Shown: piece after piece, positions 16,887 to 42,834 of the stretch
How positions within the stretch are numbered: position 1 is the stretch's first letter
Layout: every line of letters begins with the position of its first letter
Source of the DNA: an uncultured Sphingomonadaceae bacterium
GTDB lineage: Bacteria; Pseudomonadota; Alphaproteobacteria; Sphingomonadales; Sphingomonadaceae
Length of the DNA stretch: 64,000 nt
Reading direction: 5' to 3'
Assembly: GCA_903871605.1 (NCBI GenBank)
Contig: CAIQHF010000022.1
Coordinates: 1 to 64,000, forward strand
The notes under the pieces: generated by a model
Told to the model about the DNA's origin: nothing
The model's input: the letters and a program-made list of their open reading frames with translations, nothing else
Database searches by the model: none
Made by a program: the position numbers and the translations under genes

Positions 16887-17280
16887 CAGACCTCCCCAGC
16901 GGGCCGCCGGCAGCGGCGTTGCGTACGATAAGCAAGGTAGATCGATGGGTCACCCATGCCATCGGGAATATTACGAGGCCGGCGCTCGTTCCCTGGGGTC
17001 AATCCGCTCGTCCACGCACGGAAAGACCGTCCGGCGGGGGCGCGCGGTCGGGCCCGCCGGTTCACACGGCGTCGTTCCGCCTCATCCGATCGGCTGCCTT
17101 TCGTGCATGCGAAGTATCGCGCGCGCATATGCCAGCTGGCGCGGCAATTCCAATCGCTCTTCCTAGCGACGTCGAGTCGCTGAAGGTCCGATCAAACGTT
17201 GCCCCCCACCCAATCCGTCGACTTGGTCGCCCCGCCACCCCTTTCCGGGCCGGACCCCGCTTGTACCGCCGCCCCGACCG
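16887..17280. other. 394-bp divergent intergenic region (BLUF / LysR)
   Basis: No coding frame is supported. It should hold the promoters of the BLUF gene (leftward) and the LysR gene (rightward). A 13-bp palindrome near the BLUF side is listed separately; nothing else stands out. Confidence 0.5.
16945..16957. promoter_or_regulatory. palindrome ATGGGT-C-ACCCAT upstream of the BLUF gene
   Basis: This perfect 6-1-6 inverted repeat lies about 58 bases before the BLUF start, where an operator would sit. The length is modest, so chance is possible in this high-G+C region. Confidence 0.3.
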
Positions 17281-18198
17281 ATGCAGACACCGAGGATGGC
17301 ATTCGACCCGCGACAGCTGCGCGTTCTTCTCACGGTCGTCCGCGAAGGCTCGTTCAGCGCGGCCGCACGCGAGCTGACCATGTCCCAGCCCGCGGTCTCG
17401 ATGGTCATCGCCCAGCTCGAGCGCGCGGTCGGCACGCAACTGGTCGAGCGCGGCCGCCAAGGCGCGGTTCCCACGCAGGCCGGCAGGATCCTCACGCGGC
17501 GCGCGGAGATGATCGAGACCGTGCTCGATCTCGCATCGCAGGAGATTGCGCTCGGCATGAACGAGATCGAGGGGCCGCTGGTCGTCGGCGGCACACCCGG
17601 CGCGCTGATGAGCCTGCTGCCCGCAGGCATCGCCCGGCTGGAGGAACAGGGGCATCGTTTCGCGCTGCGAATCGTCGAGCTTGCCGATCCCGACATATTC
17701 CCGATGCTCCGCTCGCTCCGGATCGACATGGCGCTGGGCACCGTCGGCGTCGGCATCGTGCCTGACGACATTGTCGAGCGCGCGATCCTGTCCGACAGCT
17801 TCGTCCTGGTCATGAAGACCGACCATGTCTATCGCGTCCCGCGCGCCAGGCTCTCGGACCTGATCGAGCTGGATTGGGTGCTGCCCGAGGTCGGAGGCGC
17901 TTTCCAGCGACAGATCGAGGCGATGTTCCTGAACGCCGGGGTCGCTGTCCCGCAGCGCGCCGTTCGCTGCGATTCGCTCGCGACGACCAAGGAGATCATC
18001 CGCAAGACGAACCGCGTCACCATCCTGCCGCAACGCGTGATCGCGACCGACATCGCCAGCGGGTTGCTTCGCCAGGTCGAGATCGCCGCCGGTCCCCCGC
18101 CGCGGTTGGTCGGCGTCCGCATGCTGCGTGAGCGCGCGCAAATGCCGCTGGCGGACCGCCTCGTCCGCGCCCTGTCCGATGCCGCGACTGATCCATAA
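17281..18198 (+). CDS. LysR-family regulator of the aromatic-glycoside locus
   Basis: This 305-residue LysR-type regulator has an N-terminal helix-turn-helix (GSFSAAARELTMSQPAVSM) followed by GTQLVERGRQGAVPTQAG and a standard effector-binding domain. It is the first gene before two same-strand operons. Each operon is preceded by the same ATGA-N12-TCAT dyad three bases upstream of a TTGACG hexamer, as expected for activation by a LysR protein bound just above the -35 box. ATG 17281 is used; an ATG five codons later is possible. The effector is probably an aromatic pathway intermediate (inference). Confidence 0.88.
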   Translation: MQTPRMAFDPRQLRVLLTVVREGSFSAAARELTMSQPAVSMVIAQLERAVGTQLVERGRQGAVPTQAGRILTRRAEMIETVLDLASQEIALGMNEIEGPLVVGGTPGALMSLLPAGIARLEEQGHRFALRIVELADPDIFPMLRSLRIDMALGTVGVGIVPDDIVERAILSDSFVLVMKTDHVYRVPRARLSDLIELDWVLPEVGGAFQRQIEAMFLNAGVAVPQRAVRCDSLATTKEIIRKTNRVTILPQRVIATDIASGLLRQVEIAAGPPPRLVGVRMLRERAQMPLADRLVRALSDAATDP

Positions 18199-18207
18199 GC
18201 AAAGATG

Positions 18208-18236
18208 ATGATGTTGGCCGTTCTCATTATTTGACG
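18208..18236 (+). promoter_or_regulatory. LysR-type box plus -35 element before the catabolic operon
   Basis: ATGA (18208-18211) and TCAT (18224-18227) form a dyad with a 12-base spacer. Three bases later comes TTGACG (18231-18236). The 15 bases CTCATTATTTGACGC (18223-18237) recur exactly upstream of the TonB-receptor operon. The box ends 80 bases before the amidohydrolase start. Confidence 0.65.
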
Positions 18237-18307
18237 CTGGCCATCGCCACGCGGCATCAGACCTCCACAAGCAAGCGAGCGCAATCGCTTCTCCCGGAGA
18301 GCTCCCG

Positions 18308-19555
18308 ATGCAGCGGACCATTTTCGATCACGTCAAAATCTTCGACGGCAGCGGCAGCCCCTCCTTCGCCGGTCGTGTCCTCGTCGAGGGCGAGCGCATC
18401 GCGCAGGTTGCCAAGCGCGACGAGCCGCTGATCGGCGCGGCCGACGCGACCGTGATCGATTGCGCAGGCGCGACGCTGATGCCGGGACTGATCGAGGCGC
18501 ATGCCCATCTGACCTGGCCGTCCTCGACCGAGCGCTTCGAGCCCCGCTTCATGCTGCCGCCCGAGGAGATGATGCTGGCCGCTGCGCGCAACGGTCGCAT
18601 CCTGCTCGACCAGGGCTTCACCAGCGCGTTTTCGGCGGGCGCCTTGGGCGAGCGCATCGAGGTGGTGCTGCGCGACGAATTCAAGTCGGGCGGATTGCCC
18701 GGACCACGCCTCAAGGCCTCGACGATCGAACGCAGCCCCGAGGGGGCCGACGGCATCGAGACCGGCAAGAAACTATCGAGGGGCCGCGGCCCCGAGGCGA
18801 TGCGTGGCTTTGTCCGGCATTGCGCCGAGATCGGCATCGACACGGTGAAGCTGGTGCTGTCGGGTGAGGACGCGCTTCTGCCCGGCAGCTCGCAGCATAT
18901 CCTCTACGACGAGGCCGAGGTCGATGCCGCCTGCGACGAGGCGCGCCTCCACGGCCTCAAGGTGGCCGCGCACACGCAGGCCGCCGAGGCCGTGAAGATG
19001 GCGCTCCGCTGCGGCGTCGACGTTCTCTATCACTGCTCCTACGCCGACGAGGAAGCGCTGGACATGCTCGAGGCGCAGAAGGACCGGATCTTCGTCGCGC
19101 CGGCGATCGGCGTGATCGTGGCGACGCTCGAGGCCTCGCCGCCGCCGCATATCGACATGCGTTCGATGAAGGAGATGGCCAAGCCCGTCGTCGAGAACAC
19201 GCAACGGCTGATTCCCGAGTTGCACAGGCGCGGCGTGCGCGTGCTCCCCGGCGGCGACTATGGCTTCCCGTTCAATCCCAACGGGACGAACGCGCGCGAC
19301 CTCCAGCATTTCGTCGATCTCTACGGCTATACGCCGGCCGAGGCGCTGTCTGCCGCGACGATGCTCGGCGGACAGATTATGGGCTTGGGGCAAGAGCTCG
19401 GGCTGATCCGGCAGGGCTACCTTGCCGACCTGCTCGTCGTAGAGGGCGATCCGACCGTCGACGTGCGCTCGCTCGTCGACAAGCGAAACCTTCGGATGAT
19501 CATGCAGCGCGGCCTTTTTCATAAGGCGCCGCAGCCGATCGCGCACGCGGCATGA
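18308..19555 (+). CDS. metal-dependent amidohydrolase (imidazolonepropionase-like)
   Basis: This 415-residue amidohydrolase has an N-terminal beta-sandwich strand, the metal motif EAHAHLTW near residue 65, a metal His in VAAHTQAAEAV, another in YHCSY and the late Asp in LPGGDYGF. These are ligands of the TIM-barrel amidohydrolase superfamily. It is the first gene of the five-gene operon and directly follows the LysR box. In aromatic pathways such enzymes act as decarboxylases or ring/amide hydrolases; which applies here cannot be read. The protein shows no signal peptide. Confidence 0.82.
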   Translation: MQRTIFDHVKIFDGSGSPSFAGRVLVEGERIAQVAKRDEPLIGAADATVIDCAGATLMPGLIEAHAHLTWPSSTERFEPRFMLPPEEMMLAAARNGRILLDQGFTSAFSAGALGERIEVVLRDEFKSGGLPGPRLKASTIERSPEGADGIETGKKLSRGRGPEAMRGFVRHCAEIGIDTVKLVLSGEDALLPGSSQHILYDEAEVDAACDEARLHGLKVAAHTQAAEAVKMALRCGVDVLYHCSYADEEALDMLEAQKDRIFVAPAIGVIVATLEASPPPHIDMRSMKEMAKPVVENTQRLIPELHRRGVRVLPGGDYGFPFNPNGTNARDLQHFVDLYGYTPAEALSAATMLGGQIMGLGQELGLIRQGYLADLLVVEGDPTVDVRSLVDKRNLRMIMQRGLFHKAPQPIAHAA

Positions 19556-19601
19556 TCTGCGCAGCAGGCTTGGCCGTTCACTCGAGGCGCGGAACAGACT
19601 C

Positions 19602-21176
19602 GTGACAGCTTCCTATGACATCGCGATCGTCGGGTGCGGCCCGGTCGGCGCCTATGCGGCCAATCTTTGCGGCCGGCACGGGCTACGCACGGTGGTGCTC
19701 GAGCGCGAGGCGGATGCCTATCCGCTGCCGCGTGCCGTGCATCTCGATCACGAGATGATGCGCCTGTTCGCCGATGTCGGCCTGCTCGACGTCATGACGC
19801 CGCTGATGTTCGCGACCGACGGCCATGTCCATATCGGGGCGGACGGCGGCGTCATCCGGTTCCTGAGTTCACCGGGGACTTCTCGCCCGTTCGGCTTCTC
19901 CAACGACTATTTCTTCTATCAGCCCGAGCTGGAAGCGGCGCTTCGCGACGGGATCGGCCGTTTCCCGGCGGTGACGCTGCGTTCCGGCGAGACGGTCGTC
20001 GCGGTCACCCCCGCCGATCGGGACGTCACGCTGTCGCTCTCCGGCGGCGAGACCATTTCCGCGCGCTATGTCATCGGATGCGACGGCGCGCGCAGCACGG
20101 TACGAAAGTCGCTCGACATCCCGCTCGACGACCTCGGCTTCGAGGAACCCTGGCTGGTCGTCGATGCCGAGGTGGACGGTCCGATCTGCTTTCCCGGTTT
20201 CAAGGGGGTCCCCGAGGGCGCCGACCTCCAACGGCTGTCGGTGATGCTGTGCGATCCCGGTCGCCCGACGACGGTGGTGCCCGGACGCGGCAATCACCGT
20301 CGCTGGGAGTTCATGCTGCTCCCCGGCGAGGTCGATGAGGCGATGATGGCGCCCGAGATCGTCGACGGGCTGGTTGCGCCGTGGGTCGAAGGCGTCGCAC
20401 ACCGCATCGTGCGCGCCGCGACCTACCGTTTCCACGGGCTGGTCGCGGAACGGTGGCGGCAGCAGCGCGCGTTCCTGGCCGGCGACGCCGCGCATCAGAC
20501 CCCACCCTTTTTCGGACAGGGGATGTGTCATGGCCTGCGCGACGTTGCCAATCTGGTCTGGAAGCTTGCGCTCGTCGTTCAGGGCAAGGCGGAGGACGAC
20601 GTGCTCGACACCTATCAACTCGAACGCGATCCGCATGTCCGCGGCGTGATCGGGGCAGCCGTCGATGCCGGGCGCTACATTTGCGAGCTCGATCCTGACC
20701 TTGCGGCGGCCCGCGATGCGAACTTGCGGACGCAAAGCGGCCCGCGCACCGCAGCGGATCTGATCCCGGCGATCGCGGCAGGCATAGTCGAAGGCGATGC
20801 CGGGGAGCGCTTCATCCAGCCGCGTGTCACGACCGCGCTCGGAATCTCCGCGCCGCTCGACGTCGCGACCGGCGGCGGCTGGGTCATGCTCACGCGCGGA
20901 GTCCTGCCCGCTGTCGGCACGAACGCGCGCCACGTCTGGGACATGATCGGGGGCAGGACATTCGCGGTCGGCCCCGATATCTCGGATGACGCCGATATCT
21001 TGGATGAAGAGGGCCATCTCGAGGCATGGTTCGAGCGCCACGGCGCGATCGCGGCGATCGTCCGCCCCGATTTCTACACCTATGCCGCGCCCGCCGACAT
21101 GCCCGCGCTGATCACGGCGATCGAGCGGCTGTCGACGCATCTTTGCCTGCGAACCGCCATCGGTGCCGAGGGATAG
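19602..21176 (+). CDS. FAD-dependent aromatic hydroxylase (MhpA/PheA-like)
   Basis: This 524-residue flavoprotein monooxygenase has the Rossmann FAD motif VGCGPVGAYAANLCGRHG near the N-terminus, the second FAD/NADPH motif YVIGCDGARSTVRK near residue 160, and LAGDAAHQTPPFFGQGMCHG near residue 300. The order and length match class A hydroxylases such as 3-(3-hydroxyphenyl)propionate hydroxylase. It should hydroxylate a phenolic ring using NAD(P)H and O2, preparing it for cleavage. GTG 19602 is the start. It lies 46 bases after the amidohydrolase and 3 before the DUF336 gene. Confidence 0.87.
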   Translation: MTASYDIAIVGCGPVGAYAANLCGRHGLRTVVLEREADAYPLPRAVHLDHEMMRLFADVGLLDVMTPLMFATDGHVHIGADGGVIRFLSSPGTSRPFGFSNDYFFYQPELEAALRDGIGRFPAVTLRSGETVVAVTPADRDVTLSLSGGETISARYVIGCDGARSTVRKSLDIPLDDLGFEEPWLVVDAEVDGPICFPGFKGVPEGADLQRLSVMLCDPGRPTTVVPGRGNHRRWEFMLLPGEVDEAMMAPEIVDGLVAPWVEGVAHRIVRAATYRFHGLVAERWRQQRAFLAGDAAHQTPPFFGQGMCHGLRDVANLVWKLALVVQGKAEDDVLDTYQLERDPHVRGVIGAAVDAGRYICELDPDLAAARDANLRTQSGPRTAADLIPAIAAGIVEGDAGERFIQPRVTTALGISAPLDVATGGGWVMLTRGVLPAVGTNARHVWDMIGGRTFAVGPDISDDADILDEEGHLEAWFERHGAIAAIVRPDFYTYAAPADMPALITAIERLSTHLCLRTAIGAEG

Positions 21177-21179
21177 ACA

Positions 21180-21611
21180 ATGGCCGGGATCACGCTTTCT
21201 TGCGCCGACACGATCATCGAGGGTGCACTCGCCCACGCGCGCAGCGCGGGCCATGCACCGCTGGCGGTCGTCGTCCTCGACGCAGGCGCTCACATGGTCG
21301 CGATGAAACGGCAGGACGGCGCGAGCCTGTTCCGCGGCCAGATCGCGACGGGCAAGGCGACCGGCGCGCTCGGCATGGGCTATGGCACGCGCGAACTCGC
21401 CGCGCGCGCGCAAAAGGGTCCGCTCTTCTACACGGCATTGATGGCGATGACCGGAGAGGTGGTCCCGTCGCCAGGCGGTGTTTTGATCCGCGATGCGGAC
21501 GGAACGCTGATCGGTGCGGTCGGCATCAGCGGCGATACCGGCGATTGCGACGAGGCTTCGGCGCTGGCCGGGATCGCCGCGGCCGGCCTGATCGCGCAAC
21601 CGGCCGGATGA
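21180..21611 (+). CDS. DUF336 (GlcG/HbpS-like) protein
   Basis: This 143-residue protein belongs to the GlcG/HbpS/DUF336 family, small alpha-beta proteins, some of which bind heme or act beside oxidoreductases. Typical segments are VVVLDAGAHMVAMKRQDGA, a middle GKATGALGMG region, and the C-terminal GGVLIRDADGTLIGAVGISG. It starts three bases after the hydroxylase stop, so the two are probably coupled. Such genes recur in aromatic and glycolate operons, but the biochemical role is not established. No signal peptide is evident. Confidence 0.8.
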   Translation: MAGITLSCADTIIEGALAHARSAGHAPLAVVVLDAGAHMVAMKRQDGASLFRGQIATGKATGALGMGYGTRELAARAQKGPLFYTALMAMTGEVVPSPGGVLIRDADGTLIGAVGISGDTGDCDEASALAGIAAAGLIAQPAG

Positions 21612-21624
21612 TCGGAGACGGACG

Positions 21625-22503
21625 ATGAAGCTACGCAGCATTGAAATCGAGCTTCCGCGCATCGACGCCGCAGCGGACTTCCTCACGCGGATCTGGGGGC
21701 TCGCCGACGGCGAACGATGCCGCGGCGCCATCTATCTTCGCGGTTCGAGCCCGCTGCCCTATCTCGTCGGGCTGTTCGAGGCCGAGACCGAGAAGGTCCG
21801 ATCGGTCACCTTCCTCTGCGACGCGCAAGAACTGGCCTCGCTCGCGGCGCGCTGCGAGGGGCGCGCGCCTTTCCGTGCGGTCTCCAGCGACGATCCCGGC
21901 GGCGGTCACGGAATCGAAGTTCAGCTCCCCGAGGGCGAGATATTTCGATTTCTCGCAGACGCCGCCGACAGCCTGGCGATCGAAGGCCGGGATCTGCCGT
22001 TCAAGCTTACCCACGTCGTGCTCAGTTCCACCGACGCGGAGGCATCGGCGCGCTTCGCCGAGGAGGTGCTCGGCTTCACCGTCTCCGATCGCACCAAGGG
22101 CATGGTGTTCGTCCGCTGCAACCGCTCGCACCATTCGATCGCCTTTGCGCGCGCAGGCTATTCCTCGCTCAACCACGTCGCGTTCGAGATGTCCGACATC
22201 GACGGCGTGATGCGGGGAATCGGCCGGATGCGCGACGCCGGCACGGCGCCCGTATGGGGACCGGGCCGCCATGGCCCGGGCGACAATGTGTTTGCCTATT
22301 TCATAGCGCCGTTCGGCGCGGTGATCGAATTCTCGACGGCGACCAATCTCGTCGAGGACGACTATCGGACGGGGTCTCCCGACGATTGGACATGGCCCGA
22401 AAACCGGATCGACCAATGGGGCGTCTCGGCAAAGGACGTGACGGCCATCACCGAAGCCGAAAAGCGCTTCCGCTTCCGCGACTGGGCGCCCGGCGCGGCC
22501 TGA
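21625..22503 (+). CDS. VOC-superfamily protein, extradiol ring-cleavage dioxygenase-like
   Basis: This 292-residue two-domain vicinal-oxygen-chelate protein has possible iron ligands in the second half: His in KLTHVVLSS, His in LNHVAFEM, and Glu in GAVIEFSTA, in the order of type I extradiol dioxygenases. HGPGDNVFAYF resembles the substrate-side motif of those enzymes. Its place between an aromatic hydroxylase and a FAH-family enzyme supports ring cleavage of a catechol-type product. It is 13 bases after the DUF336 gene. Without a closer match, a non-oxidative VOC role remains possible. Confidence 0.8.
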   Translation: MKLRSIEIELPRIDAAADFLTRIWGLADGERCRGAIYLRGSSPLPYLVGLFEAETEKVRSVTFLCDAQELASLAARCEGRAPFRAVSSDDPGGGHGIEVQLPEGEIFRFLADAADSLAIEGRDLPFKLTHVVLSSTDAEASARFAEEVLGFTVSDRTKGMVFVRCNRSHHSIAFARAGYSSLNHVAFEMSDIDGVMRGIGRMRDAGTAPVWGPGRHGPGDNVFAYFIAPFGAVIEFSTATNLVEDDYRTGSPDDWTWPENRIDQWGVSAKDVTAITEAEKRFRFRDWAPGAA

Positions 22504-22517
22504 AAAAAGGATCCATC

Positions 22518-23351
22518 ATGCGTTACATCAGCTTCGCTCACCACGGGCGCACCTCCTACGGCCGTGTCGTCGGCGACAGCGTCGCCGATCTCGGCGCGCG
22601 TCACGGGGCGCCCGACGATCTGAAGTCCGCGCTTGCCGCGGGCACGCTCGCCGAACTTCAGGCCGACACGCATCTTCCGCTTTCGACGCTGACGCTGCTA
22701 CCCGTCATCCCCAATCCCGCAAAGATCCTGTGCGTCGGCCACAATTACGAAACGCACCGCCAGGAGACAGGCCGCGCCAAGGTCGACAACCCCTCGATAT
22801 TCACGCGCTTCGCCGATACGCTGATCGGCGCGGACGATGCGATCCGCAAACCCGCCGTCTCGGACTCGCTCGATTTCGAAGGCGAACTCGCGATCGTGAT
22901 CGGCAAGGCCGGGCGCAATATCGCCGAAGCGGACGCGATGGCCCATATCGCGGGCTTTGCCTGCTTCAACGATGCTTCGATCCGGGACTGGCAATGGCAT
23001 ACCAGCCAATTCACCCCGGGAAAGAACTTCCCCGCGACCGCGCCGTTCGGACCCGAGCTCGTCACGCCTGACGAGATCGAGGATCTTGCCGCAGTCACGG
23101 TGACGACACGGCTCAACGGCGAGCAGGTGCAACATGCGCCTGTCGCGGACATGATCTTCCCGATCGCCAAGATCATCGCCTACATCTCGGCCTTCACCCC
23201 GCTCAACCCGGGCGACGTGATCGCAACGGGCACGCCCGGCGGTGTGGGTGCGAAGCGCCAGCCGCCGCTGTGGATGAAGGCCGGCGACATCGTCGAAGTC
23301 GAGATCGCAGGGGTCGGCCTGCTGCGATCGCGCATCAAGGCCGAGGATTGA
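22518..23351 (+). CDS. fumarylacetoacetate hydrolase-family enzyme
   Basis: This 277-residue FAH-family protein has a small N-terminal domain and a catalytic domain with PNPAKILCVGHNYETH. The metal-binding acids are in LDFEGELAIVIGK, with an Asp in CFNDASIRDWQ, and GTPGGVG lies near the C-terminus. Members hydrolyse or isomerise 2,4-dioxo acids produced by ring cleavage, so it fits as the step after the VOC enzyme. ATG 22518 follows the previous stop by 14 bases. It is the last gene of the first operon; about 205 bases with the second LysR box follow. Confidence 0.88.
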   Translation: MRYISFAHHGRTSYGRVVGDSVADLGARHGAPDDLKSALAAGTLAELQADTHLPLSTLTLLPVIPNPAKILCVGHNYETHRQETGRAKVDNPSIFTRFADTLIGADDAIRKPAVSDSLDFEGELAIVIGKAGRNIAEADAMAHIAGFACFNDASIRDWQWHTSQFTPGKNFPATAPFGPELVTPDEIEDLAAVTVTTRLNGEQVQHAPVADMIFPIAKIIAYISAFTPLNPGDVIATGTPGGVGAKRQPPLWMKAGDIVEVEIAGVGLLRSRIKAED

Positions 23352-23377
23352 GCAGCAGAGCAATATAAGTTGCGCTG

Positions 23378-23406
23378 ATGATCTTAGCAAAACTCATTAT
23401 TTGACG
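23378..23406 (+). promoter_or_regulatory. second copy of the LysR-type box plus -35 element
   Basis: ATGA (23378-23381), a 12-base spacer and TCAT (23394-23397) are followed three bases later by TTGACG (23401-23406). This is the same arrangement as at 18208-18236 and includes an exact 15-base match. It precedes the TonB-receptor operon by about 150 bases. Confidence 0.65.
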
Positions 23407-23556
23407 CGATCCTTTCGGTAGAGGATCACGGTTCGACAATAATCGGTCAGGCAGGAACGGATAAGCCCGCTCCTCACCTGTCCACCAATCGCCCGGGTAT
23501 CAGCCCGGACACGGAGAATGCCGCGGCAAAAAGCCGATGGCACGGGAGGGGACATC

Positions 23557-25854
23557 ATGAATTTCGCACCTGCAACCCGTCTTTTGATCGGCGCGAGCCT
23601 CGCCGCCATCGGCGCGACCGCGCACGCACAATCGACGCCGGCCGATGCCACCGACCAGGGCGCCGGCGCGCCCGCCGCGGCGAGCGCGACCTCGGAGATC
23701 GTGGTCACCGCACAGCGCCGTGCCGAGCTTGTCACCAAGGTGCCGATCTCGATCACGGTCGCGACCCAAGCGCAGCTTGAGCGGCAGCAGGTCAACACGT
23801 TCAACGATCTCAACCGGATCGCGCCATCGCTCGAAATCCAGTCGGCACCCGGCCAGAATACCGGCGGCGGCGGCGCGATCCGCGGGATCGGTACGCAGAC
23901 ATTTTCGGCGGGTGCGGTCGCCTCGGTCGGCGTCGTCGTCGATCAGGTGAGCCAGGGCAACGCCAATATCTCCGATCTCTTCGACATCTCGCGCGTCGAG
24001 GTGCTGAAAGGACCGCAGGGCACGCTGTTCGGACTCACCACCTCGGCGGGCGTGATCAACATCACCACCAACGCACCCGACCCGACGCATTTCTCCGCAC
24101 GCATCCGCTCCGAGCTTTCCGACGCGGGGACCGCCGGTTCGAAGTTCGGCAACCAGGTCGTGCAGGGCGTCGTCAATATTCCGCTGAGCACCAATGCCGC
24201 GATCCGCGTCGCGGGCACCGCCAATCTTCGCCAGGGCGTCGATCGCAACGCGCTGACCGGCAAATATAACGCCAATGATCATTATAGCGGCCGCGCCCGG
24301 CTGCTGTGGAAGCCGACCGATCGCCTGACGGTCAATGTGATCGGCGATTATGCCAAGAGCAGCTACAATGGCGGCGGCGACTTCTTCACCTTCGTCAGGG
24401 CCAGCGGGCCTGGCATCCTCCCGCTCCCGACGCCCTTCCCCATCCCGGACACGGGCGTCGCCAACCAGCTCGCCAGCTGCGGCGTGACGGCGCGCGAGGG
24501 CAACCAGGATTATTGCACCAACGAGCAGGTCAGCGGCCGCATCTACAATTATGGCGGCTCGGTACAGATCGATTATGCGGCCGACCCGTTCACCGTCTCG
24601 TCGATCACGGCCTATCGCGGCAGCAAGGAGCGCGGCGCCGGCGCGGCCGGGGACGTGTTCCGCGCCGATCCGCTCGAGTTGCAGGTCAATAACGGGGACG
24701 TCCACCGCAATCTGCGCCTGTTCACGCAGGAATTCCGGATCAGCTCGCCGGCCAACCAGTTCTTCGAATATACGGCTGGCGTGTTCCTGTCGCACCAGCG
24801 CGCGACCCGCACCCCCGAGACGCTCACCGTGGCGCTTACTCCCTTCCCCGGCGTCTATATCCCGGTCGTGCAGTCGCTCGGCGCCTACGACTCGATCCTC
24901 GACGAATCGATGGCCATCTACGGCCAGGGCACGTTCCACATCGCGCCCAAATTCCGTCTGATCGCGGGCGGCCGCTACACCGCCGCCAAGCTGGCGCTCG
25001 ACCAGTATAATTACGATATCCCCGCCGATCCTGTGCAGCATCAGTCGCTCAACAGCGACAAGATCTCGTACCGTGCCGGCGCGCAATATGACGTCGCGCC
25101 CAGGACGATGATCTATGCGACCGCCTCGCGCGGCTTCAAGGGCGGCCAGATCGCGCTGCCGTCCGCACCGGCCACCCCCTATGTCGTGCTGCCCGAGGTC
25201 CCGACGGCCTATGAGGCGGGCCTCAAGACGACGCTGTTCGGCGGATGGGTCGCCGACATCAATGCCTTCTACGAGAAGATCAAGAACTTCCAGGCGCAGC
25301 AGTGTACTGTCGACGCGACCTCGGTCATCTCGTGCGTGCAGACCAATATCAGCGGCGTGAAGACGCGGGGCGCCGAGATCAACCTGTTCGGGCGCGTGTT
25401 CCAGGGCCTGTCGGTCAATACGGGCTTCATCTTCGCCAAGGCGACCTACCCCAAGGGCTTCCTGGGGACCGACGGCACCAACATCGGCGGCAGCCAGCTT
25501 GCCTATGCACCCAAATATAAGTTCACCTTCTCGGGCCAATATGACCAGCCGATCGGCGACGGCTTCAAGGGCTTCGTCGCCGCGGACGCGGTCTGGAAGT
25601 CGCGCATCCGCTACGAGGCCAATTCGTTGCAGGACACGACCTTCCGTGCGCACTGGCTGGTCGGTGGGCGGATCGGTGCGGCAACCGCAGACGACCGCTA
25701 TCAGGTCGCGCTGTTCGTGCGAAATCTGTTCAACGTGCATGAGCCGTCGCTGTACCAGAGCGCCTTTCCCTATAATGGTGCCGCCAATATCGGTGCGATC
25801 TACGGCCCGCAGTCCTTCCGCCAGGTCGGGTTGAGCCTCGACGCCAAATTCTGA
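23557..25854 (+). CDS. TonB-dependent outer-membrane receptor (probable glycoside importer)
   Basis: This 765-residue TonB-dependent receptor has a signal peptide (ending THAQ-like at about residue 24), a TonB box region near EIVVTAQRR, a plug domain (VEVLKGPQGTLFG, VINITTN) and a long beta-barrel ending in a C-terminal aromatic residue. ATG 23557 follows GGGAGGGG; an ATG 13 codons earlier lacks a site. Plugs of this type in sphingomonads often import plant aromatics and oligosaccharides. It heads the second operon, with esterase, GH1 and GH106 genes, so the ligand is probably the glycoside itself. Confidence 0.87.
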   Translation: MNFAPATRLLIGASLAAIGATAHAQSTPADATDQGAGAPAAASATSEIVVTAQRRAELVTKVPISITVATQAQLERQQVNTFNDLNRIAPSLEIQSAPGQNTGGGGAIRGIGTQTFSAGAVASVGVVVDQVSQGNANISDLFDISRVEVLKGPQGTLFGLTTSAGVINITTNAPDPTHFSARIRSELSDAGTAGSKFGNQVVQGVVNIPLSTNAAIRVAGTANLRQGVDRNALTGKYNANDHYSGRARLLWKPTDRLTVNVIGDYAKSSYNGGGDFFTFVRASGPGILPLPTPFPIPDTGVANQLASCGVTAREGNQDYCTNEQVSGRIYNYGGSVQIDYAADPFTVSSITAYRGSKERGAGAAGDVFRADPLELQVNNGDVHRNLRLFTQEFRISSPANQFFEYTAGVFLSHQRATRTPETLTVALTPFPGVYIPVVQSLGAYDSILDESMAIYGQGTFHIAPKFRLIAGGRYTAAKLALDQYNYDIPADPVQHQSLNSDKISYRAGAQYDVAPRTMIYATASRGFKGGQIALPSAPATPYVVLPEVPTAYEAGLKTTLFGGWVADINAFYEKIKNFQAQQCTVDATSVISCVQTNISGVKTRGAEINLFGRVFQGLSVNTGFIFAKATYPKGFLGTDGTNIGGSQLAYAPKYKFTFSGQYDQPIGDGFKGFVAADAVWKSRIRYEANSLQDTTFRAHWLVGGRIGAATADDRYQVALFVRNLFNVHEPSLYQSAFPYNGAANIGAIYGPQSFRQVGLSLDAKF

Positions 25855-25878
25855 CGCAGCGCAGGGGCAGGCCGTAGC

Positions 25879-26733
25879 ATGGGAACGCAGCCGCGCGAGT
25901 TACGCCAGGCGATCGCCGCGATGGGCCAGGCGCTCGGGCCGGATGTGCTGCGGTCGGTCCAGGCGCTGTTTGGCCCCGAGCAGGATGCGATGGCGGGGAT
26001 GCCGGCTAATGCCGACATCCCCTACGGCACCCACCCCCGCCAGACGCTCGATCTCTATCGGCCGGCGCAGCCCGCGGCGCCGGCGCCGGTGCTGCTTTGG
26101 GTCCACGGCGGCGGCTTCGTGCGCGGCGAGAAGCGCGCGCCGAACCATCCGTTCAACGCGCATGTCGGTCGGTGGGCGGCGCGCAACGGCATGATCGGCG
26201 CGGTGATGGAATATCGGCTCGTCCCCGATGCGCAATGGCCCTCGGGCGGCGAGGATGTCGGTCTCGCGGTGCAGTGGCTGAGGGCGCATATCGCGGACCA
26301 TGGCGGCGACCCCGATCGGATCATATTGATGGGGACGTCGGCGGGTGCGGTACATATCGCGACCTTGCTCAAGCTCGACGGACAGGCGGGTGGCGCGCAG
26401 GCCGCGGTGCTGCTGTCGGGGCTGTACGGTTTCACCCCGCTCGACGAGCGTGACACGCTCTATTACGGCGCCCACGGCTGCTATGACGAGCGGATGCCGC
26501 GCGATGCGGTGATTGGCGCGTCGATCCCGCTGTTCGTGGTCTGCGCGCAATATGACCCGCCTCGTTTCCAGGCGGAGACGCTCGGCCTCCTCCACGCGAT
26601 GCTCGAGCATGACACCATGCCGCGTGCGATGATCGTCTCGGGCCACAATCATTTCAGCCTCGCATGCCACCTCGGCGGGGCCGACACGCGACTGGCGGAC
26701 GAGGTGATCGCCTTCATCCGCGACCAGCGCTGA
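25879..26733 (+). CDS. alpha/beta hydrolase, carboxylesterase (HSL-like)
   Basis: This 284-residue esterase of the hormone-sensitive-lipase-like group has the oxyanion motif HGGGFVRGEK, nucleophile GTSAGAVH, acid in CAQYDPPRF and catalytic His in SGHNHFS. No signal peptide is seen, so it is cytoplasmic. It follows the receptor by 24 bases. A likely role is removing acyl groups from the imported glycoside or aglycone. Confidence 0.82.
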   Translation: MGTQPRELRQAIAAMGQALGPDVLRSVQALFGPEQDAMAGMPANADIPYGTHPRQTLDLYRPAQPAAPAPVLLWVHGGGFVRGEKRAPNHPFNAHVGRWAARNGMIGAVMEYRLVPDAQWPSGGEDVGLAVQWLRAHIADHGGDPDRIILMGTSAGAVHIATLLKLDGQAGGAQAAVLLSGLYGFTPLDERDTLYYGAHGCYDERMPRDAVIGASIPLFVVCAQYDPPRFQAETLGLLHAMLEHDTMPRAMIVSGHNHFSLACHLGGADTRLADEVIAFIRDQR

Positions 26734-26754
26734 TCGCTTTTCCAGGAGAATGAG

Positions 26755-28056
26755 ATGATCGATCGCCGAACGCTGATCGCAACCGCAGGCGCGCTCGCCG
26801 CGACCAGCGCCGCCGGTGCTGTGCCCATGCGCCGCTCCTTCCCCAAGGGCTTCCTATGGGGTGCGGCGACCGCTGGGCACCAGGTCGAGGGCAATAATGT
26901 CAATGCCGACGTCTGGCTGCTCGAGAATGTGAAGCCGACGATCTTTAGCGAACCGTCCGGCGACGCCGACAATAGTTTCGAGCTGTGGCAGACCGATCTC
27001 GATCTGGTGAAGCGGCTGGGGCTCGACAGCTACAGGTTCAGCCTCGAATGGCCACGGATCGAGCCCGAGCAGGGGCTCTGGTCGATCGCGATGCTCGATC
27101 ACTACAAGCGCATCGTCGAGGGGTGCCGCGCACGCGGCCTCACCCCGATCGTGACCTTCAATCACTACACGACACCGCGCTGGTTTGCCGCGCGCGGCGG
27201 ATGGGTTGCCGCCGATTCGGCGATGCTATTCGCGCGCTTCTGCGATCGCGCCGCGCGTCACCTGGCCTCCGGCATCGGCTATGCGACGACGCTCAACGAA
27301 CCCAACATCATGCGTATCCTCAATTATGTGCTGCCCCCGCAGTTCGTCGCGGGGCAGCGCGCCATGCTGGCGGCGGCGGCGCGCGCGTGCGTCACAACCG
27401 CCTTCTCCGCCGGCAACGCGGTCAATCCCGAGGACATCGACGCGGTAACCCATAACCTCGTTGCCGGCCACAAGGCGGGACGCGAGGCGATCAAATCCGT
27501 CCGCCCCGATCTTCCCGTCGGCGTCAGCCTCTCGATGTTCGACGATCAGCCGATCGGCCCCGGCAGCAAGCGCGACGCGATGCGTCGCGAGCTGTACGGC
27601 ATATGGCTCGACGCGGTGAAGGGCGACGATTTCCTCGGGGTGCAGAATTACGAACGCGTGCTGTGGGGTGCCGACGGGCGTCTGCCGCCGCCCAAGGGCG
27701 CGACGCTCAATGCGATGGGGGGCGAGGTCTATGCGCCGTCGCTCGCCAATGCGGTCCGCTACGCGCATGCCGCGACCGGGGTGCCGATCCTGGTGACCGA
27801 GCATGGCGTCGGCACCGACGACGATCGCATCCGCGCCGCGCTGATCCCCGCCGCGCTCGCCGAGCTGCGCAAGGCGATGGACGACGGCATACCGGTCAAG
27901 GGCTATGTCCACTGGTCGCTGATCGACAATTTCGAGTGGATCTCGGGGTTCAAGGGCAAGCTCGGCCTGTGCTCGGTGGATCGGACGAGCTTCAAGCGGA
28001 CACCGAAACCCAGCGCCGGCATCTACGGTGCTATCGCGCGGGGCAACAGCCTGTGA
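26755..28056 (+). CDS. Tat-exported GH1 family beta-glycosidase
   Basis: This 433-residue glycoside hydrolase family 1 enzyme begins with a twin-arginine signal (IDRRTLIATAGALAAT), so it is exported folded to the periplasm. The acid/base glutamate is in TLNEPN and the nucleophile glutamate in LVTEHG; the more common form is TENG. Family 1 enzymes remove beta-linked glucose or related sugars. It starts 21 bases after the esterase and its stop overlaps the next GTG start (GTGA). A periplasmic place fits a glycoside that has just crossed the outer membrane. Confidence 0.87.
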   Translation: MIDRRTLIATAGALAATSAAGAVPMRRSFPKGFLWGAATAGHQVEGNNVNADVWLLENVKPTIFSEPSGDADNSFELWQTDLDLVKRLGLDSYRFSLEWPRIEPEQGLWSIAMLDHYKRIVEGCRARGLTPIVTFNHYTTPRWFAARGGWVAADSAMLFARFCDRAARHLASGIGYATTLNEPNIMRILNYVLPPQFVAGQRAMLAAAARACVTTAFSAGNAVNPEDIDAVTHNLVAGHKAGREAIKSVRPDLPVGVSLSMFDDQPIGPGSKRDAMRRELYGIWLDAVKGDDFLGVQNYERVLWGADGRLPPPKGATLNAMGGEVYAPSLANAVRYAHAATGVPILVTEHGVGTDDDRIRAALIPAALAELRKAMDDGIPVKGYVHWSLIDNFEWISGFKGKLGLCSVDRTSFKRTPKPSAGIYGAIARGNSL

Positions 28057-29009
28057 GCCGGGCGCTGACGTTGAAGACGCTGGCCGCCGCGATCGCGCTC
28101 ATGCTCCCCGCCGCGCTCCCTGCGCAGATGCCCGATTTCAAGCTGCTGCCGATCGCCCGCCCAGCCGATCCGGCCGCGCTCGAGCTCTGGCCGCGTTCGA
28201 CGCTGCCACCGCCTTCGGTGCCTGAGCGCTGGGGGCGACTGGTTGCGGATATCGGTACGCAGCACATGGATGCACGCATCGCGCGCAATGTCTCCTATCC
28301 GACGATCACGCCGGTGCTGCCCGATCCGACCAACGCCACGGGCGCCGCCGTCGTCGTCGCACCGGGCGGCGCCTTCCTGTCGCTATCGATGGATTCCGAG
28401 GGCTTCGATGTGGCGCATTGGCTGGCGGCGCACGGCATCGCCGCGTTCGTCCTCAAATACCGGCTCAATCCCACCCCGGCGAACGACCGCGACTTCATGG
28501 CGACGGTCGGTCGCATCATGGGCGCCGCGATCCGGTCGGGCGGCACGGCCGACATCCGCGACGATTATGCCGCAACGGATGCGTTACAGGCACTTCGGCT
28601 TGTGCGTGACGGCGCCTCGAAATGGCATGTCGACCCGAAGCGCGTCGGCATCATCGGATTTTCGGCCGGCGCCATGACCGCGCTGCAATCGGTACTGACC
28701 GGCGAGCCCGCGGCGCGGCCCGCCTTCCTCGGTTATATCTACGGGCCGATGGTGGCCGTGGACGTCCCGGCCGGCGCGCCGCCGATGTTCGCTGCGCTCG
28801 CGCTGGACGATCCGCTTTTCGGCCGCCAGGGCTTCGGCATCGTGCAGGCCTGGCAAAAAGCGGGACGCCCCGCCGAGCTCCACGCCTATGAGCATGGCGA
28901 TCACGGCTTCGGAATGGGGCGGCCGGGCACCACGACGGTGCTGCTGATGGACGAGTTCAGATTATGGCTCGCCAGCAACGGCCTGCTGCGCGCGGGCGGT
29001 GCTCGGTGA
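28053..29009 (+). CDS. secreted alpha/beta hydrolase (acetylxylan-esterase/BD-FAE-like)
   Basis: This 318-residue protein has an N-terminal signal peptide (AIALMLPAALPAQ) and an esterase fold: oxyanion strand VVVAPGGAFLS, nucleophile GFSAGAMT, and the C-terminal His in HGDHGFGMG. It resembles the esterases that accompany glycosidases in plant-polymer loci. GTG 28053 overlaps the GH1 stop (GTGA); the open frame further upstream is a shadow of GH1. Its stop likewise overlaps the next GTG. A role in deacylating the glycoside is inferred from context. Confidence 0.82.
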   Translation: MSRALTLKTLAAAIALMLPAALPAQMPDFKLLPIARPADPAALELWPRSTLPPPSVPERWGRLVADIGTQHMDARIARNVSYPTITPVLPDPTNATGAAVVVAPGGAFLSLSMDSEGFDVAHWLAAHGIAAFVLKYRLNPTPANDRDFMATVGRIMGAAIRSGGTADIRDDYAATDALQALRLVRDGASKWHVDPKRVGIIGFSAGAMTALQSVLTGEPAARPAFLGYIYGPMVAVDVPAGAPPMFAALALDDPLFGRQGFGIVQAWQKAGRPAELHAYEHGDHGFGMGRPGTTTVLLMDEFRLWLASNGLLRAGGAR

Positions 29010-32000
29010 TCCGCTGGCTCGCCGCGCTCCTCCTTGCCTCGACCGGGGCATGCGCGGGCGCAGCCGATCCGCTCGCCGACGGCTTCGCCACGCCGCCGCA
29101 AAGCGCCCGGCCGCGCGTCTGGTGGCATTGGATGAACGGCAACATCACCAAGGACGGCATCGCCAAAGACCTCGCCTGGATGAGCCGGATCGGAATCGGC
29201 GGCGCGCAGACCTTCGATGCGGCAATGGCGACGCCGCAGATCGTTGACCGGCGCCTCGCCTATATGAGTCCCGAATGGAAGGACGCCTTTCGTACCGCCG
29301 CCGCGGACGCGGACCATCTCGGCCTCGAGCTCGGCATTGCCTCTTCGCCCGGCTGGAGCGAGACGGGCGGCCCGTGGGTGGCGCCCAAGGACGGGCTCAA
29401 GAAGCTGGTTTGGAGCGAAACCGAGATTGTCGGGGGACGGCATTTCGTCGGCAGGCTCGCGTCGCCTCCGGTCACCACCGGCCCGTTCCTTACCGCACCG
29501 TTTGACGATCCGCTCGCCGCGTTCGGCGGCAAGCCGATCGTGCCCCCGACCTATTATGCCGATGCGGTTGTGCTGGCCTATCCCCTCGCCGACCCCGCGC
29601 CATTGCCGCCGGCGCGGATGACGGCGGACGGCAAGCTGCTCGATGGCACGCTCGTCGACGGCCACGATCTCGCCGGCGGGATCGCGATCGAGCAGGGCAC
29701 CGCGGCAAAGCCCGGGATGGTCGCGATCGACTATGCCGCACCCCAGACAATCCGCTCGGCGACCATCGCCATTCCGGGCGCAAAATCGATGTTCGTCGAT
29801 GCGACGATCCTGCCGGTGCTCGAGGCGGAAGACGCGACCGGATGGCGACGCATCGCAACGCTGCCGCTCGCCGAAGCGCCGACCACCGTCGCGTTCGCGC
29901 CGGTCACCGCCCGGCGGTTCCGACTGCTGCTCGAGCCAAGTCCACCGGCCGGTGCTCCAGGGCTCGGCGACGGCGCACCGGGCGCGATCGTCGGCGGTAT
30001 CTTTCCGACTGGCCCCGCCACGACGACGGTCAAGCTCGCCGAGCTGCGCCTGGAGTCCGCCCCCAGGGTCGACCGCTTCGAGCAGAAGGCCGGCTTCGCG
30101 ATCGCGCGCGATTACTATGCGCTCGCCACCACCGCGGGGGACGACGCAGGCGTCGCGCCGGGCCGCGTGATCGACATCAGCCGCCACATGCGGCCCGACG
30201 GTACGCTCGACTGGACACCGCCGCCGGGGCGCTGGCGGATCCTCCGCCTCGGCGCCTCGCTGCTCGGCACCACCAACCATCCGGCGACGCCCGAGGCGAC
30301 CGGGCTCGAGGTCGACAAGTTCGATCGTGCGGCGGTGCACGAGTATCTGGAAACCTATCTCGGCACCTATCGCGACGCCGCCGGCCCGGGCCTGATCGGG
30401 ACGCACGGCGTGCGCGCGATGGTGACGGACAGCATCGAGGTGGGCGCCGCCAACTGGACGCCGAAGATGATCGCGCAATTCCAGCGGCTGCGCGGCTATG
30501 ACCCAACCCCCTGGCTGCCCGCGCTGACCGGCACGATCATCGGCTCGCGCGCGCAGTCCGACGCGTTCCTGTACGACTATCGCCGGACACTCGCCGAGCT
30601 GATCGCGAGCGAGCATTATGGCGAGATCGCCAAGACGGCGCACGCGCATGGCTTGACGCTGTACGGCGAGGCGCTCGAAAGCCTCCGTCCCTCGCTCGGC
30701 GACGACATGGCGATGCGCAGCCACACCGATGTCCCGATGGCGGCGATGTGGGCCTATAATCGCGGTGGGACACCGCGCCCGACATTGCTCGCCGACATCA
30801 AGGGCGCGGCATCGGTGGCGCACATCTATGGGCAGAATATCGTCGCGGCCGAATCCTTCACCTCGGCCTTCTCGCCATGGGCATATGCGCCGTCGGATCT
30901 CAAGCGCATCGCCGACCTCGAATTCGCGCTGGGCGTCAACCGGCCTGTCGTCCACACCTCGGTCCACCAGCCGACCGACGACAAGCTGCCGGGCCTCTCG
31001 CTCGCTATCTTCGGGCAGTATTTCAACCGCCACGAGACCTGGGCCGAGATGGCGGGGCCGTGGGTCGAATATCTCGCGCGCAGCGGCTATCTGCTCCAGC
31101 AGGGGCGCTACTATGCCGACGTGGCCTATTTCTACGGCGAGGAGGCGCCGCTGACGTCGCTCTATGGCGACCGCCCGATCGGCGATGCGCCTACCCATTA
31201 TGGCTATGATTTCGTCAATCCCGACGTGTTGTCGAACAAGCTGACCGTCGAGAATGGCGACCTCGTGGCACCGACCGGGGCGCGATACCGTATCCTCTAC
31301 CTCGGCGGCTCGAGCCGCCGGATGACCTTGCCGACGCTGCGCCGCATTGCCGCACTCGCGCAGGCCGGAGCGGTGATCGTCGGCGAACCACCGGAAAGCT
31401 CGCCCAGTCTTGCCGACGATCCTGCGGCGTTCGCACGGCTGACCCGCATGCTGTGGAGCGGCAAGCCCGTGACGCCGATCGGCAAGGGCCGCGTCATCGC
31501 CGGGCATGATGTCGAACGCGCGCTCGCCTCATTGGGGATCGCCCCCGATTTCGTCTATGCCTCGCCGGAAGCGGATGACGACATCCTGACGCTGCACCGT
31601 AGGCTTGCGGACGGTGACCTGTATTTCGTCGACAATCGCGCCAACCGCCAGACACGGGTCGAGGCCCGCTTCCGCGTCTCCGGCAGGCAGCCCGAACTCT
31701 GGCATGCCGACAGCGGTACCGCCGAGCCGATTTCGTACAGGTTCGAGAATGGGCAGACGATCGTGCCGCTCGATCTCGCAGCCGAAGAATCCGTCTTCGT
31801 AGTCTTCAGAAAGACCACGCGCGTGCAGTCCGCGACCGTGGCGAAGCCGACATGGCGAGAATTGCCGCCAATCGCCACGCCATGGACCGTGCGCTTCCAG
31901 CCCGATCGTGGCGCGCCCGCGTCGGTCTCGCAACCGTCGCTTCGCCCCCTCAACGAGAGCGGTACACCGGGCATCCGGTATTTTTCCGGGATTGCCACCT

Positions 32001-32335
32001 ATTCGAACAGCTTCACGCTCGCCAAGGCGCCGGGCCGCAGCCTGCTGCTCGATCTCGGCAAGGTCGGCGATATCGCTGAAGTGCGCGTCAACGGCATACG
32101 CGTCGGTACCGCCTGGCACGCGCCCTACCGCGTCGACATCGCGGCCGCCGCGCATGTCGGGCAGAACCGGCTGGTCATCAGCGTCGCCAATCTCTGGGTG
32201 AATCGTCTGATCGGCGACGCACAGCCCGATGCGCATAAGATCAGCTGGACGCCATTGCCGACCTATCGCGCGGATGCGCCGTTGCGCGCGTCGGGTCTGA
32301 TCGGACCGATCGCGTTGCTCGAGCCTGTCGAGTGA
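29006..32335 (+). CDS. rhaM: GH106 family alpha-L-rhamnosidase
   Basis: This is a 1,109-residue secreted enzyme. GTG 29006 overlaps the upstream stop (GTGA) and is followed by a signal peptide (WLAALLLASTGACAGA). The start of the mature protein (PRVWWHWMNGNITKDGI) is characteristic of GH106 alpha-L-rhamnosidases, the family that includes Sphingomonas RhaM of nearly the same length. A large beta/alpha catalytic region follows. A jelly-roll/galactose-binding-like region (about residues 985-1090) ends the protein. It should remove terminal alpha-L-rhamnose from glycosides, extra-cytoplasmically. Confidence 0.88.
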   Translation: MIRWLAALLLASTGACAGAADPLADGFATPPQSARPRVWWHWMNGNITKDGIAKDLAWMSRIGIGGAQTFDAAMATPQIVDRRLAYMSPEWKDAFRTAAADADHLGLELGIASSPGWSETGGPWVAPKDGLKKLVWSETEIVGGRHFVGRLASPPVTTGPFLTAPFDDPLAAFGGKPIVPPTYYADAVVLAYPLADPAPLPPARMTADGKLLDGTLVDGHDLAGGIAIEQGTAAKPGMVAIDYAAPQTIRSATIAIPGAKSMFVDATILPVLEAEDATGWRRIATLPLAEAPTTVAFAPVTARRFRLLLEPSPPAGAPGLGDGAPGAIVGGIFPTGPATTTVKLAELRLESAPRVDRFEQKAGFAIARDYYALATTAGDDAGVAPGRVIDISRHMRPDGTLDWTPPPGRWRILRLGASLLGTTNHPATPEATGLEVDKFDRAAVHEYLETYLGTYRDAAGPGLIGTHGVRAMVTDSIEVGAANWTPKMIAQFQRLRGYDPTPWLPALTGTIIGSRAQSDAFLYDYRRTLAELIASEHYGEIAKTAHAHGLTLYGEALESLRPSLGDDMAMRSHTDVPMAAMWAYNRGGTPRPTLLADIKGAASVAHIYGQNIVAAESFTSAFSPWAYAPSDLKRIADLEFALGVNRPVVHTSVHQPTDDKLPGLSLAIFGQYFNRHETWAEMAGPWVEYLARSGYLLQQGRYYADVAYFYGEEAPLTSLYGDRPIGDAPTHYGYDFVNPDVLSNKLTVENGDLVAPTGARYRILYLGGSSRRMTLPTLRRIAALAQAGAVIVGEPPESSPSLADDPAAFARLTRMLWSGKPVTPIGKGRVIAGHDVERALASLGIAPDFVYASPEADDDILTLHRRLADGDLYFVDNRANRQTRVEARFRVSGRQPELWHADSGTAEPISYRFENGQTIVPLDLAAEESVFVVFRKTTRVQSATVAKPTWRELPPIATPWTVRFQPDRGAPASVSQPSLRPLNESGTPGIRYFSGIATYSNSFTLAKAPGRSLLLDLGKVGDIAEVRVNGIRVGTAWHAPYRVDIAAAAHVGQNRLVISVANLWVNRLIGDAQPDAHKISWTPLPTYRADAPLRASGLIGPIALLEPVE

Positions 32336-42788: not shown

Positions 42789-42834
42789 GGCCCCCGGCCC
42801 CCGGCCCCCGGCCCCCGGCCCCCGGCCCCCGGCC
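42789..42834. repeat. heptanucleotide tandem repeat (GGCCCCC, about 6.5 copies)
   Basis: Six perfect GGCCCCC units (42789-42830) and GGCC lie in the space between divergent gor and lepB, about 100 bases before the lepB start. Seven-base units are prone to slip by replication, so copy number could vary and shift promoter spacing. Confidence 0.85.

Follow-up and report, generated by a model that had tools for sequence, protein, structure and literature searches.

A LysR-type regulator and two matching predicted operators before a ring-cleavage operon and a glycoside uptake operon in an uncultured Sphingomonadaceae bacterium

Genes and Features of the Locus

The window, i.e., the whole stretch of 64,000 nucleotides that was analysed, contains a gene for a LysR-type transcriptional regulator (LTTR), which is followed on the same strand by two groups of genes, termed operon 1 and operon 2 here (Table 1). 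Membership of the regulator in the LTTR family is indicated by both of its domains, since the N-terminal HTH domain scored 75.8 bits and the C-terminal substrate domain 86.3 bits (cut-offs 26.6 and 28, respectively); the best match among solved structures was TsaR (E 6.3e-17). The original prediction had placed a LysR gene just upstream of the first site, and indeed the gene (PF00126 and PF03466) ends at position 18198. Its stop codon TAA (18196–18198) falls inside predicted operator 1. The gene is co-directional with operon 1, not divergent from it; divergence of an LTTR gene from its target, with a common operator, is frequent, but not obligatory.

The alignment of the GH106 protein with PDB entry 6q2f, which we take to be the rhamnosidase RHA-P, covers residues 36–1121 of the query. 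Because GH106 occurs together with GH1, the gene content points to a rhamnoglucoside with a phenolic aglycone as substrate; the inducer would probably be a flavonoid-type rhamnoglucoside or its aglycone. No RNA family reached its gathering score between positions 17000 and 33000.

Table 1. Features of the regulator gene, the two predicted operators and the two operons.
Feature	Position	Strand	Remarks
LysR-type regulator (LTTR), 305 aa	17281–18198	+	Pfam HTH_1 and LysR_substrate
Predicted operator/promoter 1 (46 bp)	18193–18238	+	Same register as the sites in 19/19 LysR-AmH intergenic regions of relatives
Operator 1, T-N11-A dyad	18193–18211
Operator 1, second conserved block CTCATTATTTGAC	18223–18235
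Operator 1, -35-like TTGACG	18231–18236
Amidohydrolase (AmH), operon 1, first gene	18308–19555	+	Amidohydro_1; conserved neighbour in relatives
FAD aromatic hydroxylase (FMO), MhpA-like, operon 1	19602–21176	+	FAD_binding_3; NF004829 480 bits (cut-off 390)
HbpS/GlcG-like protein, operon 1	21180–21611	+	PF03928
Extradiol-type ring-cleavage dioxygenase, VOC fold, operon 1	21625–22503	+	PF00903; catechol 2,3-dioxygenase-like match below cut-off
Fumarylacetoacetate-hydrolase (FAH) family protein, operon 1, last gene	22518–23351	+	PF01557
Predicted operator/promoter 2 (46 bp)	23363–23408	+	Relatives-only matrix score 20.0, best in window
Operator 2, recognition dyad	23363–23381
Operator 2, AAAACTCATTATTTGAC block	23389–23405
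Operator 2, -35-like TTGACG	23401–23406
TonB-dependent outer-membrane receptor, operon 2, first gene	23557–25854	+	PF00593, PF07715
BD-FAE-type esterase, operon 2	25879–26733	+	PF20434
GH1 beta-glucosidase-like glycosidase, operon 2	26755–28056	+	PF00232
Alpha/beta hydrolase, operon 2	28053–29009	+	PF07859 / PF01738
GH106 alpha-L-rhamnosidase, last gene assigned to operon 2	28964–32335	+	PF17132 1047.8 bits; PDB 6q2f 1374.2 bits

Two Sites in the Window and in the Genome

The original prediction described two copies of a composite motif, each with the same 15 bases and further matching bases to the left. These were all found again: ATGA-N12-TCAT-N3-TTGACG is present at 18208–18236 and 23378–23406, CTCATTATTTGACGC is the same at 18223 and 23393, and TGATGAT to the left of it is common to both sites. 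The genome-wide search for the composite motif, which had been proposed as a check, was run with ATGATNTTNGCNNNNCTCATTATTTGACGC, a pattern derived from the two window sites themselves. Allowing up to 3 mismatches, only these two sites were obtained in the window and in the genome of 4,276,050 bases; the reversed control gave no match in the genome, and 100 shuffles of the window gave none either.

An exact 15-base repeat is per se weak evidence; 44 left-maximal pairs of this length occur in the window, versus a mean of 15.5 in Markov sequences. The CTCATTATTTGACGC pair is the only one with at least 60% AT in a window of 66% GC, and no such pair appeared in 30 simulated sequences. A pure-GC tandem array with the 7-bp unit GGCCCCC was noticed at 42789–42834. 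The bare pattern ATGA-N12-TCAT-N3-TTGAC with up to 3 mismatches was not enriched (4 found, 6.65 expected). The evidential weight lies in the full site and in its conservation in relatives.

A scoring matrix was built from 19 distinct sites of 20 loci of relatives, with the window left out. Applied to the window, it ranked site 2 first and site 1 second (9.2), the third place scoring -2.1; the best score in 30 Markov sequences was -0.5. Model R1, a sequence model made from 26 sites with those of the window among them, likewise matched only these two in the genome at E ≤ 10 (site 2, E 1.7e-4; site 1, E 0.145), and thus no further site which could enlarge the regulon was found in this genome at that threshold. 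The sites, the absence of further genomic copies, their conservation and the tie to the LysR family come directly from the analysis.

Anatomy of the Site and a Corrected LysR Box

The composite site of the relatives consists of the dyad CCATAG-N7-CTATGG (T-N11-A), about 8 variable bases and AAAA-N-TCATTATTT(T/G)AC. From this, the LysR box given in the original prediction, ATGA-N12-TCAT, has to be moved: its letters belong to the site, ATGA forming the dyad's right arm, TCAT lying in the second block, but the main dyad is CCATAG-N7-CTATGG, situated 15 bp further left. T4 and A16 were invariant in 26 aligned sites, including both of the window. As in LTTR promoters, an imperfect T-N11-A dyad thus stands upstream of the -35. 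From its centre to the downstream -35 hexamer there are about 29 bp, the usual distance for LysR activators, which would put the centre near -64 with TTGACG as the -35.

In 42 distinct sites of relatives, the seven position pairs of CCATAG-N7-CTATGG were complementary in 77% of cells, whereas the four pairs of ATGA-N12-TCAT reached 51%, and the latter was therefore rejected as the main LysR dyad; these percentages are tilted towards CCATAG-N7-CTATGG, because the matrix that picked the 42 sites contains its columns. Pairs 3-17, 4-16 and 5-15 were complementary in all 42 sites and could not exceed shuffles, since those positions never vary. Pair 6-14 (36/42) was not above shuffles; pair 2-18 (31/42) was the only one of this dyad which was (p ~0.001). 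Some support for ATGA-N12-TCAT came from pair 18-33, complementary in 24 of the 42 sites and above shuffles (p ~0.0025).

A second conserved block, columns 29–43, adjoins the -35. Judged by its sequence, TCAT...TTGAC is probably an activation site that merges into the -35. This arrangement bears on a different reading, according to which the shared sequence would be the promoter of an alternative sigma factor and not a LysR operator. The longest identical block, CTCATTATTTGACGC, adjoins the -35-like hexamer, as such a promoter would have it, and column 63 holds a weakly conserved A (0.70 bits) which fits the second base of a -10; site 2 has this A, site 1 is without it at that spacing. Against this, the most conserved columns include dyad columns 3–5 and 15–17, which are 29 bp upstream of the -35, and a strong -10 consensus is lacking: the hexamers at both window sites are poor, with 3/6 matches each. 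The site also follows the regulator, being present in 31 of 34 loci with a LysR match versus 3 of 52 without. A sigma-factor promoter is therefore very improbable, and a LysR operator is preferred.

The two window sites depart from the relatives in the same way, with TGATGA where these mostly have CTATGG. Pair 6-14 is A-T instead of G-C, so that the dyad is preserved there, and T15 is replaced by G, which breaks pair 5-15. Site 2 has kept the A-tract of the relatives; site 1 is without it and has the lower matrix score. Common off-consensus letters (A6, T14, G15 and G41) could be taken to mean that site 2 arose recently by duplication of site 1 and has no selected function. Yet the flanks are unrelated (14/60 identical on each side), and agreement is 16/19 in the conserved columns versus 7/13 in columns which are variable in relatives. 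Since the conserved columns agree and the flanks differ, the sites look as if held by selection and not recently copied, and we give a functionless duplicate hardly any chance.

Conservation in Relatives

A pattern scan for the dioxygenase in the genome_contigs collection gave 98 relatives, of which the best 80 were used. About half of these hold much of the cluster, among them Novosphingobium, Sphingobium, Alteromonadaceae, Caulobacter, Niveispirillum and others. A frequent order is that of the window, LysR-AmH-FMO-HbpS-VOC-FAH-TonB-esterase-GH1, in some cases with GH106. Wherever LysR stands directly before AmH among the best 80 of 98 relatives, the composite site was found between the two genes (19/19 loci). 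Besides the training sites, the 80 loci gave 16 matches scoring at least 12 (15 separate places) and 31 scoring at least 5; with the reversed matrix, 6 matches of at least 5 were obtained, the best scoring 9.2.

Within the family, the dioxygenase occurs in 7 of 397 genomes, including the window's own. All five new family clusters with LysR, which were outside the training set, have a site beside this gene (55.4, 46.5, 42.1, 18.5 and 15.4); the one other new cluster, on a contig fragment, has neither LysR nor a site. A family-wide search with a pattern like that of the original prediction (up to 3 mismatches) had matches in 3 of 298 genomes, the own one included; the remaining matches have scores of -16.5 and -14.7 by the relatives-only matrix and appear to be due to chance.

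Counted over 86 loci, LysR and site occurred together in 31, LysR alone in 3, the site alone in 3 and neither in 49, an association that is not one of independent cases, because the loci are related. In this count L024 (9.8) and L039 (7.7), which have sites before AmH, were scored as without a site, and L040 (11.0) as with one. L028 and L032 have a more distant LysR (33–34%), and L026 is a contig end. Model R1 gave 48 matches in total over the genomes of 25 relatives, which were drawn from loci many of which had supplied model sites. Matches at E ≤ 1 were present in 23 of them, in several of which even the top match is weak (G319, 0.65; G313, 0.32; G323, 0.11); no match at this threshold was obtained in two Caulobacter genomes, those of L010 and L042, loci without a LysR hit.

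In 19 of the 21 loci checked, the window among them, the LysR stop codon is located within the operator. Its offset takes three different values, and the operator therefore does not simply result from the end of the coding sequence. Helix alpha-3 of the regulator and a base of the dyad vary together: QPA was found with A6 in 5/5 sites and QPS with G6 in 33/35. As an independent proof this covariation was rejected, since the label changes once on the LysR tree, with long branches nearby. Among 10 genomes from the genus, the one containing the window was alone in having the LysR at E ≤ 1e-60, and for this reason the island was probably acquired.

Positions of the Sites in the Clusters of Relatives

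Among 38 loci with AmH, a site scoring at least 12 is present upstream of this gene in 26 (20 training loci and 6 others) and one scoring 5–12 in 3. The remaining nine are without a site of at least 5 there (L010, L028, L030, L032, L035, L036, L040, L042 and L083, the last of which starts inside the AmH gene). GH1 is present in 31 loci, and in seven of these it is preceded by a site of at least 12 (L015, L018, L021, L025, L035, L036 and L038, three being near-identical); an eighth, in L040, scores 11.0. Further sites stand before TonB receptors (L009, L015, L019 and L135, GH106 then following in L019 and L135) and before MFS genes (L008 and L046). The Marisediminitalea genome of L018 (G308) has three sites before three units, namely ring cleavage, GH1, and a TonB receptor with GH106; the third of these predicted operators (L135, 5757) is about 18 kb from the L018 cluster. 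The occurrence of sites before both kinds of units in several genomes is the strongest support for joint regulation. A strict rule that every unit has its own site had to be rejected: the split clusters L035, L036 and L040 contain LysR and a GH1 site (22.8, 21.4 and 11.0, respectively), and none before AmH.

The gap between FAH and the TonB receptor is a different case. None of the 21 relatives with the window's FAH-TonB order carries a site there (best score -9.4), and because of this the predicted second operator of the window is considered unusual and particular to its lineage. It could be argued that site 1 is the sole working switch and that operon 2 is mainly read through from operon 1, with site 2 as a weak promoter or a spare one, as the empty gap in all 21 other clusters of the same order would allow. 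A simple scan found no terminator between the operons, so that read-through from operon 1 may occur, and a scan for sigma-70 promoters gave only a promoter-like match on the minus strand there. Site 2, however, is nearer to the sites of relatives than site 1 (20.0 versus 9.2), and it stands, with its A-tract, directly before operon 2. Read-through as the main route is thus unlikely, and site 2 is preferably regarded as a second operator.

Several other matches were noticed. In L132 (G029), the FAD hydroxylase and the VOC dioxygenase are divergent, with sites upstream of each at 8438 and 9388 (15.4 and 8.5). Off-cluster sites precede a gene of the nucleoside-hydrolase family (PF01156) in L133 at 6710 (G305:C1:914709, E 8.2e-6) and in L137 at 5435 (G320:C38:143434, E 0.023); this gene is a possible extra member of the regulon in the two relatives. 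Another off-cluster match (G314:C34:4396, E 0.017) is near a contig end, with no clear gene. These three matches and places in G308 and G309 were examined; the weaker off-cluster matches have E values of 0.02 to 0.9. The start positions given for such extra model matches deviate by a few bases, since matches begin at model position 1 or 2. The rhizobial locus L074, which has a more distant LysR, shows a weaker site near a gene for an ABC solute-binding protein and may belong to another system. The genome of L019 (G309) has operator matches on contigs C57 and C68 (C57 was examined), which suggests a second copy of the cluster in the MAG or a mixed bin.

Joint Regulation and a Proposed Mechanism

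We estimate at about 85% the probability that the LysR protein uses both sites as operators and has the two operons as its regulon. The joint activation of both operons that had been predicted at the outset is hence retained in part: joint control is strongly supported by the sites of relatives, but such clusters do not generally have the second site. Binding by LysR, activation and the direction of the effect are what we infer from the sequences. For LysR regulators, a tetramer scheme with RBS and ABS is outlined in PMC11739112. In the window, one DNA-binding pair of a LysR tetramer would occupy the T-N11-A dyad, whose centre is some 29 bp before the -35, and the other pair would contact CTCATTATT, the block adjoining the -35. 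Binding of the inducer could then re-set the contact with CTCATTATT, whereupon RNA polymerase would be recruited, and ring cleavage (18308–23351) and glycoside uptake with deglycosylation (23557–32335) would be switched on jointly.

The following broader picture is offered tentatively. The cluster could be a sporadic catabolic island for phenolic glycosides, common to Alpha- and Gammaproteobacteria, with a small regulon of its own and an operator that often lies within the 3'-terminal part of the regulator gene, the frame being variable. Many units, not all, may gain their own copy of the operator upon rearrangement; in the window, a single long operon may have been divided by a lineage-specific operator into two that are co-induced. 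The change of helix alpha-3 from QPA to QPS would track that of the dyad from A6 to G6 as one event, and the nucleoside-hydrolase-family gene could be a further member.

Such a regulon would place the ring cleavage of a plant phenolic glycoside under the same named regulator as its uptake and deglycosylation. It provides a precise operator to test, with a corrected box for footprints or for the design of biosensors, and the lineage-specific second operator would be a clean, testable case of regulon rewiring.

Comparison with Known Systems

The title and abstract openings searched, most subscription journals being outside the search, contained no description of a two-operon LysR regulon of this kind. 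Searches for a footprint of the fde system gave nothing beyond PMC10799723, and those for naringin and Caulobacter nothing of use.

FdeR, from the naringenin degradation system of Herbaspirillum seropedicae, is a LysR-type activator whose T-N11-A boxes are described as overlapping with the -35 of the fde operon (PMC10799723). By this description the window is alike, having a LysR-type regulator, a T-N11-A dyad by the -35 and an aromatic operon. It differs in that the regulator is co-directional with the operon, with its stop codon in the operator, and in that a second predicted operator serves an operon for uptake and deglycosylation. In the fde pathway, the hydroxylase FdeE and the dioxygenase FdeC are reported to act on the A-ring (PMC11069340). 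The inducible isoflavone cluster ifc of Variovorax, with transcriptional regulators, is described as containing an FAD monooxygenase and a glyoxalase-type, FdeC-like protein (PMC11069340), comparable by description to the FAD hydroxylase and VOC dioxygenase here. Cupins and an alpha/beta hydrolase are named for ifc; genes for GH106, GH1 and TonB receptors are not named in the available text of PMC11069340, and the word LysR does not occur in its main text. By analogy, the ring chemistry of the window resembles that of the fde/ifc flavonoid pathways (PMC10799723, PMC11069340). RHA-P of Novosphingobium sp. PP1Y is a GH106 rhamnosidase acting on flavonoid glycosides (cited in PMC10653915); the window's GH106 belongs to the same family and matches PDB 6q2f, and the available part of PMC10653915 describes no regulatory site for RHA-P. 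Taken together, this is a LysR switch of a known and fairly ordinary kind, and what is particular here is the lineage-specific second operator.
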